Assembly (NCBI RefSeq): GCF_016429285.1
Contig: NZ_JAELUI010000027.1
Coordinates: forward strand, 1 to 47,829
Origin: Ralstonia sp. ASV6
GTDB lineage: Bacteria > Pseudomonadota > Gammaproteobacteria > Burkholderiales > Burkholderiaceae
Direction: 5' to 3'
DNA length: 47,829 nt
Positions 23,857-41,272 of this stretch are shown here, one piece after another. Made by a program: the position numbers and the translations under genes. Below the pieces are notes generated by a model. It did no database searches. It saw only the letters and a list, made by a program, of their open reading frames with translations, and was not told the origin of the DNA. Within the stretch, counting starts at the first letter, position 1; every line of letters begins with the position of its first letter.

Positions 23857-24249
23857 TTAACGCTTCGAGAACTGCTTGGCGCGGCGGGCCTTGCGCAGAC
23901 CGACCTTCTTACGCTCGACTTCACGTGCATCGCGCGTCACCAGACCTGCCTTCGACAGGGTCGGCTTGAGCGTTGCATCGTAGTCGATCAGGGCGCGGGT
24001 GATGCCGTGGCGCACGGCACCGGCTTGGCCGGTTTCACCGCCGCCGACCACGTTGACCTTGATGTCGAACGTAGCTGCGTGGTTGGTCAGTTCCAGCGGT
24101 TGACGCACGATCATCAGCGAGGTTTCACGAGCGAAGTACTCGTTGATGGCCTTGCCGTTGACGATGATGTCGCCCTTGCCGGACTTGATGAAGACACGTG
24201 CCACAGCGCTCTTGCGGCGGCCGGTACCATAGTTCCAATTACCGATCAT
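23857..24249 (-). CDS. rpsI: 30S ribosomal protein S9
   Basis: S9 is a small-subunit protein whose C-terminal tail reaches the P-site tRNA. The 130-residue product has the typical [15 protein letters not shown] opening, [19 protein letters not shown], and the basic tail [14 protein letters not shown] ending in the conserved Lys-Arg. It follows rplM by 12 bases, the standard rplM-rpsI operon. Confidence 0.98.
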
Positions 24250-24871: not shown

Positions 24872-24901
24872 ATTGTACCTCGCAAGCAACCCTTGACACA
24901 A
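24872..24901 (-). promoter_or_regulatory. Candidate promoter of rplM-rpsI
   Basis: On the minus strand TTGTGT (24901-24896) and TACAAT (24877-24872) are 18 bases apart. They lie just downstream of the 24933-24960 terminator, so rplM-rpsI would be separately started and carry a leader of about 175 bases. Confidence 0.45.
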
Positions 24902-24932
24902 GGAAAAAGGCACGCTCCACCCACAGCGGACG

Positions 24933-24960
24933 AAAAAAAACCCAAGCCGTTGAGCTTGGG
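24933..24960 (-). terminator. Strong minus-strand rho-independent terminator upstream of rplM
   Basis: On the minus strand CCCAAGC pairs with GCTTGGG around CTCAACG-like loop bases and is followed by T8 (the A8 at 24933-24940). The stem is at 24941-24947 and 24954-24960. No protein gene on the minus strand ends here, so it implies a short non-coding transcript or an attenuator. Confidence 0.8.
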
Positions 24961-25046
24961 TTTGAATCCACCAAAGGAGGAGGGTGGAGGAGACACCTGC
25001 TGATCGTTGACTTGGTGGGTTGCACCGCATCAGTCGATCCAATGGG
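24933..25046 (-). ncRNA. Candidate small RNA with anti-Shine-Dalgarno loop
   Basis: A consensus-like promoter, about 110 bases and a strong terminator define the unit. Predicted structure, 5' to 3': stem-loop 1 pairs GATCGACT (25039-25032) with AGT-CAA-CGATC (25012-25002); stem-loop 2 pairs TCCACC (24988-24983) with GGTGGA (24972-24967) and presents the loop CUCCUCCUUU; stem-loop 3 is the terminator. A second UCUCCUCC lies just before stem-loop 2. The loop contains CCUCCUUU, the same string as the 16S rRNA 3' tail, so base pairing to ribosome-binding sites is a plausible mode of action. C-rich loop RNAs of this design are known in alpha- and betaproteobacteria. An attenuated leader for rplM is the alternative. 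Confidence 0.55.
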
Positions 25047-25050
25047 TGCA

Positions 25051-25078
25051 ATTATACCCATTTCTGGGGCACTCGCAA
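25051..25078 (-). promoter_or_regulatory. Sigma-70 promoter of the candidate small RNA
   Basis: On the minus strand TTGCGA (25078-25073) and a perfect TATAAT (25056-25051) are separated by 16 bases. A second TATAAT lies farther upstream at 25126-25121 with a poor -35. Confidence 0.6.
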
Positions 25079-25083
25079 GATAA

Positions 25084-25123
25084 TTTGCACTACGAAATCG
25101 CATTTCGTAATGCAAAATGCATT
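25084..25123. promoter_or_regulatory. Strong dyad, candidate operator upstream of the small RNA promoter
   Basis: TTTGCACTACGAAAT (25084-25098) and ATTTCGTAATGCAAA (25102-25116) form a 15-bp inverted repeat with one mismatch and a CGC spacer. A second dyad, AATGCA-AAA-TGCATT (25109-25123), overlaps it. The site ends six bases from the -35 box. I do not recognise the cognate regulator. The tract is much more AT-rich than its surroundings. Confidence 0.6.
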
Positions 25124-25376: not shown

Positions 25377-25802
25377 ATGGAATGCACAGTGAGCTGGACC
25401 GGCCCGGACGGCATGGCCTTTTTGGCGGAAACCGGCAGTGGCCATCTCGTCACAATGGATGGCGCGCCGGACGGCGGCGGCCGCAACCTGGCGCCACGCC
25501 CGATGGAAATGGTGCTGCTGGGTACCGGCGGCTGCACCGCCTATGACGTGGTGCTGATCCTCAAGCGCGGCCGCCAGGACGTACAGGGCTGCAGCGTCAA
25601 GCTGCACGCCGACCGCGCCGAGACCGACCCGAAGATCTTCACGCGTATCCACTTCACCTTTACGGTGACGGGGCGCAACCTCAAGCGGGAAACTGTGGAG
25701 CGCGCAGTCCAGCTCTCGCACGAGAAGTACTGCTCGGCGTCGATCATGCTGGCCAAGACGGCCGAGATCACGCACTCGCTGGAACTGATCGAACTGGCCT
25801 GA
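25377..25802 (+). CDS. OsmC family protein (YhfA-like)
   Basis: OsmC-type proteins are small cysteine-based peroxidases or their non-peroxidase relatives. The 141-residue product has the family core: APRPMEMVLLGTGGCTAYDVVLILK with the first cysteine, and HEKYCSASIMLAKTAEITHS with the second. This matches the YhfA-type subgroup rather than classical OsmC or Ohr. ATG 25377 is preceded by ACAAGGA. The gene is alone on the plus strand between two minus-strand non-coding RNAs. Confidence 0.9.
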   Translation: MECTVSWTGPDGMAFLAETGSGHLVTMDGAPDGGGRNLAPRPMEMVLLGTGGCTAYDVVLILKRGRQDVQGCSVKLHADRAETDPKIFTRIHFTFTVTGRNLKRETVERAVQLSHEKYCSASIMLAKTAEITHSLELIELA

Positions 25803-25830
25803 TTGATGGCCAATCCGGCTGAAGGGAAAA

Positions 25831-26172
25831 GCGAAGCGAACCGATAAGCCGGATTCTGTGCGCCGCGCGGCCGAAACCAGCGGCGTGACAACCATTCCTC
25901 TAGACCGGCTGTTGCCAGCCGGCTCAAGCTCCCTACCCGCAGACTCAGCGAGCCGCTTCATCGCCTGCTTACTTGGGATTGCTCCGGGTGGAGGTTACCG
26001 CGTTTCACCCTTCGCCCTGGCCGAAGCCTGGGCGAAGACTCGTCTCTGTGGCCCTATTCCGCACGTCACCGTGGATGGTCGTTAGCCATCACCCTGCTCT
26101 ATGGAGTCCGGACTTTCCTCCCCTTCCACGCGCACGAGGCGGCGGAAGCAGCGGTTGTCTGGTCCGCTTCGC
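25831..26172 (-). ncRNA. rnpB: RNase P RNA (bacterial type A)
   Basis: RnpB is the catalytic RNA that trims tRNA 5' leaders. On the minus strand the 5' region reads GCGAAGCGGACCAGACAACC, and its first eight bases pair with CGCTTCGC at the 3' end to make helix P1. GAGGAAAGTCCGGACTCC (conserved region I, near 26103-26122) is present, as is AGAGGAATGGTTGTCACG (near 25886-25903). The characteristic 3' ACAGAATCCGGCTTATCGG lies at about 25840-25858. Ends are set from P1 pairing and may be off by a few bases. TAGACT at 26186-26181 may be its -10. Confidence 0.95.
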
Positions 26173-40932: not shown

Positions 40933-41272
40933 TTCAAGAGCAATTTCCGGCTGCTGCGTTGATCGTGCGAAGTGCCGGAGGGCACCTCTCACAGCAGTGA
41001 ACGCTTCTACTCTCGCCTCGTGTTTTGCAACTTTCATACCATCCGCCACAGCGTCATGCAGATACGCATGCGCACGGTATCGACACGCCAGCGCTGTGCA
41101 TGGCGTGCGCATCGAAGGTGCGCGCGAACCCTCTATGGTGCATACGAAAGCAAGCCACGGCCTGCAGCTTGCGCCCTTGGGCGTTGGCCTGAACCTTGCG
41201 TGATTCCCTGCAAGAGTAGAAGCGTTCAGCAGCCGTGCGCAGCGTGCCGGCTGGCCGGGAATTGCTCTTGAA
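40933..41272. repeat. 340-bp element with two pairs of inverted repeats (MITE-like)
   Basis: Outer pair: TTCAAGAGCAATTTCCGGC (40933-40951) against 41254-41272, 19 bases with one mismatch. Inner pair: TGAACGCTTCTACTCTCGC (40998-41016) against 41210-41228, 19 bases with one mismatch. About 193 bases lie between the inner arms, with further short dyads. The sequence between outer and inner arms differs in length on the two sides (46 and 25 bases). I see no transposase and no clear target-site duplication. It fills most of the 609-base gap (40795-41403) between the importer and the oxygenase gene. Confidence 0.7.

Follow-up and report, generated by a model that had tools for sequence, protein, structure and literature searches.

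The window, the whole stretch of 47,829 nucleotides that was analysed, carries a small RNA (sRNA) locus on its minus strand, in which a promoter, a leader hairpin, the element UGUCUCCUCC, a hairpin with a CUCCUCCUUU loop and a terminator follow one another. The sigma-70-type promoter TTGCGA-16-TATAAT (25078..25051, a consensus match) and a strong intrinsic terminator (24932..24963, with a hairpin at 24963..24938 followed by a U run) bracket about 110 bases, as the original prediction had said, and both lie on the minus strand. Transcription would start near 25044, and the leader hairpin (25002..25039, minus strand, drawn from folding and a comparison of 16 Ralstonia sequences) would belong to a precursor. 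The conserved UGUCUCCUCC seed (24995..24986, minus strand) is complementary to Shine-Dalgarno sequences of the GGAGGAGAC type, and the mature RNA presumably has its 5' end near this element (24995). Folding places a central hairpin, UCCACC/GGUGGA, at 24967..24988 on the same strand, with CUCCUCCUUU in its loop (24982..24973). An imperfect palindrome, TTTGCATTACGAAATGCGATTTCGTAGTGCAAA, stands 5' of the sRNA -35 (25084..25116, minus strand), and similar sequence occupies the same place in other genera. Several mechanically called open reading frames cross the sRNA stretch, and support as a gene was found for none of them. Outside the sRNA, on the minus strand, lie its neighbours rplM (ribosomal protein L13, 24262..24690, Pfam PF00572) and rpsI (ribosomal protein S9, 23857..24249, Pfam PF00380), preceded by a separate promoter-like site, GTGTCA-16-TACAAT (24899..24872, minus strand, by consensus match only), which follows the sRNA terminator, precedes rplM and is conserved within the genus. 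R. pickettii SSH4 has an rplM with 99% identity to that of the window, and the genome was accordingly taken as a Ralstonia. Upstream of the sRNA are an OsmC-like gene (25377-25799, plus strand) and a class A RNase P RNA (25829-26170, minus strand, Rfam). Elsewhere in the window, two matches to the xanthine (NMT1) riboswitch stand back to back (40933-41017, minus strand, and 41209-41272, plus strand; Rfam), flanked by a minus-strand and a plus-strand ORF that resemble a substrate-binding protein and a 2OG-Fe(II) oxygenase, respectively.

The 113 nt sRNA folded at -38.1 kcal/mol, compared with -27.4 kcal/mol (SD 3.4) for dinucleotide shuffles (z = -3.2), and none of the 200 shuffles folded as well. 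The 241-base sRNA stretch was held by 16/16 genomes of the genus at 86-100% identity, and the 16 Ralstonia sequences showed no variable column from UGUCUCCUCC to the 5' arm of the terminator. Together with the Rfam match described below, these results bear out the expectations that the locus has structure beyond chance and that its stems and loop are conserved in close relatives. Two CU-rich elements had been described as well; the one in the loop was recovered as CUCCUCCUUU, whereas the one preceding the stem is present with its last UCC taken into the central stem in the centroid fold. Of the three stems proposed for covariation, two showed compensated changes. The leader hairpin was kept in the 16 Ralstonia sequences, with one compensated change and two broken cells, and 20 precursors from outside Ralstonia displayed compensated changes at two leader pairs and one terminator pair, while five of the six central-stem pairs were invariant among these 20; because its pairs hardly vary, covariation of the central stem is a weak test. 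The leaders of Ralstonia and of the other genera were folded separately, the MAFFT alignment between them being poor.

Membership and distribution of the RNA family

The sRNA is not a new type of RNA. It is a member of Rfam family RF02278 (Betaproteobacteria toxic small RNA, also described as double-hairpin RNA), whose covariance model matched 24932..24995 on the minus strand over model positions 1-64 of 64 with 70.9 bits (gathering score 50, E = 2e-12), and the hallmarks of that family, a UGUCUCC seed, a CU-rich hairpin and an intrinsic terminator, are all present in the window copy. RF02278 was detected in 48/60 genomes of the window's taxonomic family, with up to 7 copies each, and in none of 14 control genomes; at the level of the order, 129/200 genomes had a match at E 0.001 and 74/200 exceeded the curated cut-off, again with 0/14 controls. 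Three order-level genomes of one taxonomic family (G077, G125 and G231 of f7) hold eight or nine matches each, a local expansion. The genome of the window has a second copy on another contig (C171, 54.9 bits). For the analyses below, 121 copies from the window's taxonomic family were used (111 above the RF02278 cut-off and 10 below it, weaker matches being left out).

An rplM-linked copy, on the same strand and within 1100 bases upstream, was present in 42 of the 59 genomes of the taxonomic family that have rplM (two of these copies scored below the Rfam cut-off), and rplM followed in the same orientation at 14/27 RF02278 loci outside that family. At named loci, the core stands before rplM in Burkholderia, Paraburkholderia, Cupriavidus, Pandoraea, Caballeronia and Herbaspirillum, and a leader hairpin 5' of the core is present in many rplM-linked copies. 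The gene BCAL3348 of B. cenocepacia J2315 is, we assume, rplM. In B. cenocepacia, the interval from BCAL3348a to BCAL3349 contains ncS27 (PMC4603805), which is one of four double-hairpin RNAs of this species (ncS03, ncS05, ncS27 and ncS62) assigned to RF02278 (PMC4603805, PMC5688073), with which the window copy shares the UGUCUCCUCC seed, the CU-rich hairpin and the terminator. Like NcS27, the window copy has a leader hairpin and precedes an rplM of the same orientation, so that the rplM-linked copies share both place and leader architecture. Differential RNA-Seq in B. cenocepacia revealed a site at which processing gives a short form (PMC5688073), and the putative cut of NcS27 is CGA/AUG (PMC7377471). 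At this cut point, CCGAATGTCTCC is found in the rplM-linked B. aenigmatica copy (L054); the window copy, with a Ralstonia leader sequence and a lost PhaR half-site (see below), differs from NcS27 in that the CGA/AUG cut sequence before the core was not found and GCAGGTGTCTCC stands there instead, a comparison that bears on the cut sequence and not on descent. Given the rplM synteny across genera and CCGAATGTCTCC at the cut point in B. aenigmatica, we regard the window copy as very probably the orthologue of Burkholderia NcS27, as judged from sequence, and by analogy its leader is probably cut off by processing as in NcS27.

The original prediction had put its emphasis on the identity of the loop with the anti-Shine-Dalgarno tail of 16S rRNA. 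The 16S-like CCUCCUUU was found in 64/208 copies, compared with GUCUCCUCC within the first 16 nt in 202/208 and a second CUCC further on in 182/208. On this count the emphasis does not hold: 16S-tail identity was rejected as the key feature, and judging from these copies the match of the loop is incidental.

Predicted targets

Genes whose ribosome-binding sites could pair with the seed were sought in the window's own genome with a 9-nt pattern, since the perfect 11-nt target TGGAGGAGACA before ATG occurred at one place, where 2 nt separate it from the start codon of a periplasmic binding protein of the sugar type. The pattern GGAGGAGAC-N1-9-ATG was found at 14 distinct places versus 7 for the permuted control GGAGGCAGA-N1-9-ATG, which are small numbers set against one permuted control. 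Twelve ORFs of more than 100 aa stood behind the pattern (2/14 places with ORFs below 50 aa were left out), and by Pfam 10/12 belonged to uptake or carbon catabolism: seven to uptake (two periplasmic binding proteins, three MFS carriers, a porin and a CitMHS-type citrate transporter) and three resembling carbon catabolism (PaaG, acetoacetate-CoA ligase and an acyl-CoA ligase of the AMP-binding type), the remaining two being a DUF2957 protein and one without a Pfam match. The five control ORFs of 71 aa or more (2/7 places with ORFs below 60 aa were left out and one ORF of 71 aa was kept) were a DUF1801 protein, a short-chain dehydrogenase, an acetyltransferase, a Ysc84 protein and one without a match. 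The Fisher P value for this bias was 0.04 when uptake alone was counted and 0.003 when catabolism was counted with it; requiring 100 aa of target and control ORFs alike gave 0.09 and 0.008, respectively, and classing the short-chain dehydrogenase of the control as catabolic gave 0.03. The predicted targets of the sRNA in its own genome would thus be mostly uptake and carbon-catabolism genes.

Ribosome-binding sites figure in the published work on the family. In B. cenocepacia, overexpression of NcS27 attenuates growth, and cells grow faster when an RNA complementary to its CU-rich end (the reverse complement) is expressed (PMC5688073), and the effects of NcS27 are reported to depend on the substrate (a 2019 study, as described in a review). 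S17 of Bordetella pertussis resembles the window sRNA in that a long form gives rise to a short one with the same CU-rich 5' end, that it represses at ribosome-binding sites and that its predicted targets are rich in transporters; BP2158 is a direct target of repression by S17S, and transporters are numerous among the candidate targets. It differs in its place in the genome, between BP3151 and coq7, and in an expression tied to the Bvg+ mode (PMC11722255). With members from Burkholderia and Bordetella described as expressed, processed and regulatory, the reading of the locus as a stand-alone sRNA that could pair with many ribosome-binding sites is supported.

PhaR-type sites upstream of RF02278 copies

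Many RF02278 copies are preceded by TTGC-N3-GCA-N-CA or TTGC-N3-GCACAA, and in many stand-alone copies the site lies at -34/-35 before UGUCUCC, together with a TATAGT-like -10. Read on the opposite strand, this site, TTGC-N3-GCA..., gives TG[N]TGC[N]3GCAA, the consensus for PhbF/PhaR, a repressor that responds to PHB; this consensus was obtained with MEME from twelve pha promoter regions and is supported by a footprint on phbF (PMC3206438); the PhaR operator of R. eutropha is given as YTKNTGCRNYGCANMAR (PMC12849132). Perfect TTGCN3GCANCA sites occurred within 140 nt upstream of 38 of the 121 copies, compared with 0.19 in shuffles, and the next 260 nt upstream of the same copies held one site on the sRNA strand. 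Perfect sites were rarer in rplM-linked copies (5/42) than in the others (33/79). Outside the window's taxonomic family, the site was perfect at 11/27 loci versus 0.06 in shuffles, and had at most one mismatch at 23/27 loci versus 1.04 in shuffles (maximum 4). Phasin promoters contained a site matching at 8 or 9 of 9 positions in 27/30 cases and a perfect one in 9/30 (over 435 bases, on either strand and with no shuffle control). A matrix that started from the published PhbF/PhaR consensus and was refined on 23 of these 30 phasin loci (threshold 11.7) flagged 78/208 sRNA promoters, compared with 2.15 in shuffles. Across the window's own genome, a PhaR-type site combined with a -10 occurred at 4 places and at 4 in the reversed control, so this pattern alone defines no regulon. 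One of these four matches (L315, contig C271:3844-3871, minus strand), with TTGCGACGCATCA as site and -10, lies some 90 bases ahead of a gene for isocitrate lyase (Pfam ICL); the reversed control likewise gave four.

The occurrence of the site was then compared with that of PhaR itself (PF07879), which was present in 50/69 order-level genomes among the matches listed (87 loci, further copies from the same genome and weaker matches being left out). Among these matches and outside the window's taxonomic family, a site with at most one mismatch preceded the sRNA in 38/50 genomes with PhaR and 1/19 without (Fisher P = 7e-8), a perfect site in 29/50 and 0/19 order-level genomes, respectively, and the phasin-based matrix flagged 28/63 loci of PhaR-containing and 0/24 of PhaR-less genomes; twelve of the 50 PhaR-containing genomes in this set were without the site. 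Counted by taxonomic family among the matches listed, with families of both states entered on both sides, the site was present in 15/18 with PhaR versus 1/8 without (Fisher P = 0.001). As the PhaR-less families may be one clade, these cases are not independent events. Inside the window's taxonomic family, 38/44 genomes with PhaR and 2/4 without had the site (Fisher P = 0.12), one of the two exceptions being a genome that is 83% complete (G053) and the other having its match at -132 (G001), and the matrix flagged 3/7 loci of PhaR-less genomes. PhaR operator sequences are thus enriched at promoters of the RNA family and co-occur with PhaR, in statistics that ignore phylogeny, and we consider it likely, from these sequence patterns, that many RF02278 promoters across the Burkholderiales carry a PhaR operator.

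The window copy, the second copy and the phasin 3' UTR

The PhaR operator is absent from the -35 of the window's own copy, where the aligned stretch TTGCGAGTGCCCC scored -8.8 against the threshold of 11.7. At this position the PhaR half-site of other genera is replaced by TGCCCCA, and in the 16 Ralstonia copies TTGCG is followed by two bases that vary and then by TGCCCCA or a close variant of it. The matrix did flag the window copy, at 12.3, by a weak match, GTGCAACCCACCA, inside the leader, which we did not count as a PhaR site because the A of its GCA triplet, an otherwise fixed base of the site, varies within the genus. The rplM-linked copy of the window possibly obeys something else, for example a regulator of the palindrome at 25116..25084. 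Sequence similar to this palindrome, CATTACGAAATGCGATTTCGTAGTGCAAA (25084-25116), also precedes copies linked to rplM in Burkholderia, Paraburkholderia and Pandoraea, and the second Ralstonia copy carries TTACGTAGTTCTACGTTA in its place.

The second copy had a perfect PhaR-type site in 4/4 Ralstonia genomes examined. A further element, UGUCUCCUCGG, was found in the phasin 3' UTR at 7/30 phasin loci (4/4 Ralstonia genomes, two Cupriavidus-like and one other), followed by a hairpin and a terminator in all six of these loci that were folded; an eighth match at a phasin locus (L135) is a different sequence. In the window's own genome the element lies 155 nt past the phasin stop (L141, contig C312), the other loci being L139, L140, L144, L145, L134 and L129. 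With its hairpin and terminator, it resembles an additional sRNA of this family, encoded within the mRNA of a PHB granule protein.

Discussion

Family membership, synteny, site enrichment, PhaR co-occurrence and the target list all come from sequence comparison, and taken as a whole they are best explained, in our judgement with good probability, by an NcS27-type anti-Shine-Dalgarno sRNA under PhaR control at the level of the RNA family. A precursor of about 113 nt would be transcribed from its own promoter to the intrinsic terminator, and removal of the leader hairpin would leave a mature RNA starting near UGUCUCCUCC. The seed GUCUCCUCC and the CUCC loop would pair with Shine-Dalgarno sequences of the GGAGGAGAC type and block translation, mainly of mRNAs for uptake and carbon catabolism. 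The family promoters would be operators of PhaR, a repressor that leaves the DNA as PHB granules form; as PHB forms and PhaR leaves, the sRNA would rise and nutrient uptake would fall. Because the window copy lost its PhaR site at -35, we place PhaR control in this genome on the second copy (contig C171) and perhaps on the UGUCUCCUC element in the phasin 3' UTR.

Another account, to which we give a minor share of the probability, is that the RNA is a metabolic sRNA as published, and that the element common to the promoters is either the site of a different regulator or an extended -35, with PhaR uninvolved. The TTGC half of the site does overlap the -35, the window copy is without a good site there, the 12 PhaR-containing order-level genomes without a site (among the matches listed) fit this account, there is a second palindrome further upstream, and an upstream motif shared by three homologues is mentioned in PMC5688073 (supplementary figure). 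However, the distal GCANCA half does not correspond to any sigma-70 element, the whole site fits both the footprinted PhbF consensus (PMC3206438) and the phasin promoters of the same genomes, the site tracks PhaR across families among the matches listed, and PhaR binds the promoter of an analogous sRNA, MmgR, in an electrophoretic mobility shift assay (EMSA; PMC12542648). It is improbable that the RNA is a general translation brake or toxin that titrates Shine-Dalgarno sequences or ribosomes with no choice of target, an idea that draws on the family name, on the finding that cloned copies are toxic to E. coli (Kimelman 2012, as cited in PMC4603805 and PMC5688073) and on the slower growth under NcS27 overexpression (PMC5688073); only a minority of copies share the loop identity with the 16S tail, the predicted targets are functionally biased, the effects of NcS27 depend on the substrate (as reviewed), and the impairment described in the S17 work with E. 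coli was only modest and came later (PMC11722255). The other reading offered by the original prediction, that the hairpins form an attenuated rplM-rpsI leader in which r-protein or ribosome status decides passage of the terminator, has the frequent rplM linkage in its favour and was rejected as very improbable because a separate promoter-like site follows the terminator (24899..24872, a consensus match kept in the genus) and 79/121 copies, of which a genome may have up to 7, are not beside rplM, and published RF02278 members are free small RNAs.

For the preferred reading, an RNA under PhaR control that blocks uptake and catabolism genes, MmgR (alpha-r8) of S. meliloti would by analogy be a close precedent in another RNA class. 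This sRNA is repressed by AniA/PhaR through a promoter dyad and tied to PHB metabolism (PMC8401924, PMC12542648), and AniA/PhaR shifts its promoter in EMSA (PMC12542648); its published targets are phasins, in contrast to the uptake and catabolism genes predicted for RF02278. Alpha-r8/MmgR was not among the four Rfam matches in the window, MmgR being another RNA family. MmgR has CCUCCUCCC loops. The PhaR/PhbF regulon of Herbaspirillum and Cupriavidus is the other point of comparison: its TG[N]TGC[N]3GCAA or YTKNTGCRNYGCANMAR sequence fits many RF02278 promoters, while the targets named in the accessible text of PMC3206438 and PMC12849132 are pha/PHB genes, with no sRNA named there. In our literature search, with most subscription papers and all supplements outside it, we found no paper that connects RF02278, NcS27 or other double-hairpin RNAs to PhaR or to PHB, and the link of the PhaR operator to RF02278 is apparently unreported. 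We propose, as the probable though conditional reading of these sequence data, that the double-hairpin anti-Shine-Dalgarno family is the RNA arm of PHB sensing, that the rplM-linked copy of Ralstonia and Cupriavidus-like genomes lost the operator while a further UGUCUCCUC lies in the major phasin 3' UTR, and that rhizobial MmgR is an independent or ancient parallel.

If this is true, the PhaR operator would answer what controls these sRNAs in B. cenocepacia, where their regulation was called unknown (PMC5688073), and it would fit published data in which ncS03, ncS05 and ncS27 increased in medium with glucose (8.0-, 6.9- and 4.3-fold, respectively; PMC5688073). RNAs labelled toxic would become a feedback from carbon storage to nutrient uptake, and PHB metabolism, whose post-transcriptional layer a 2021 review called undeciphered for Cupriavidus necator (PMC8401924), would gain such a layer.
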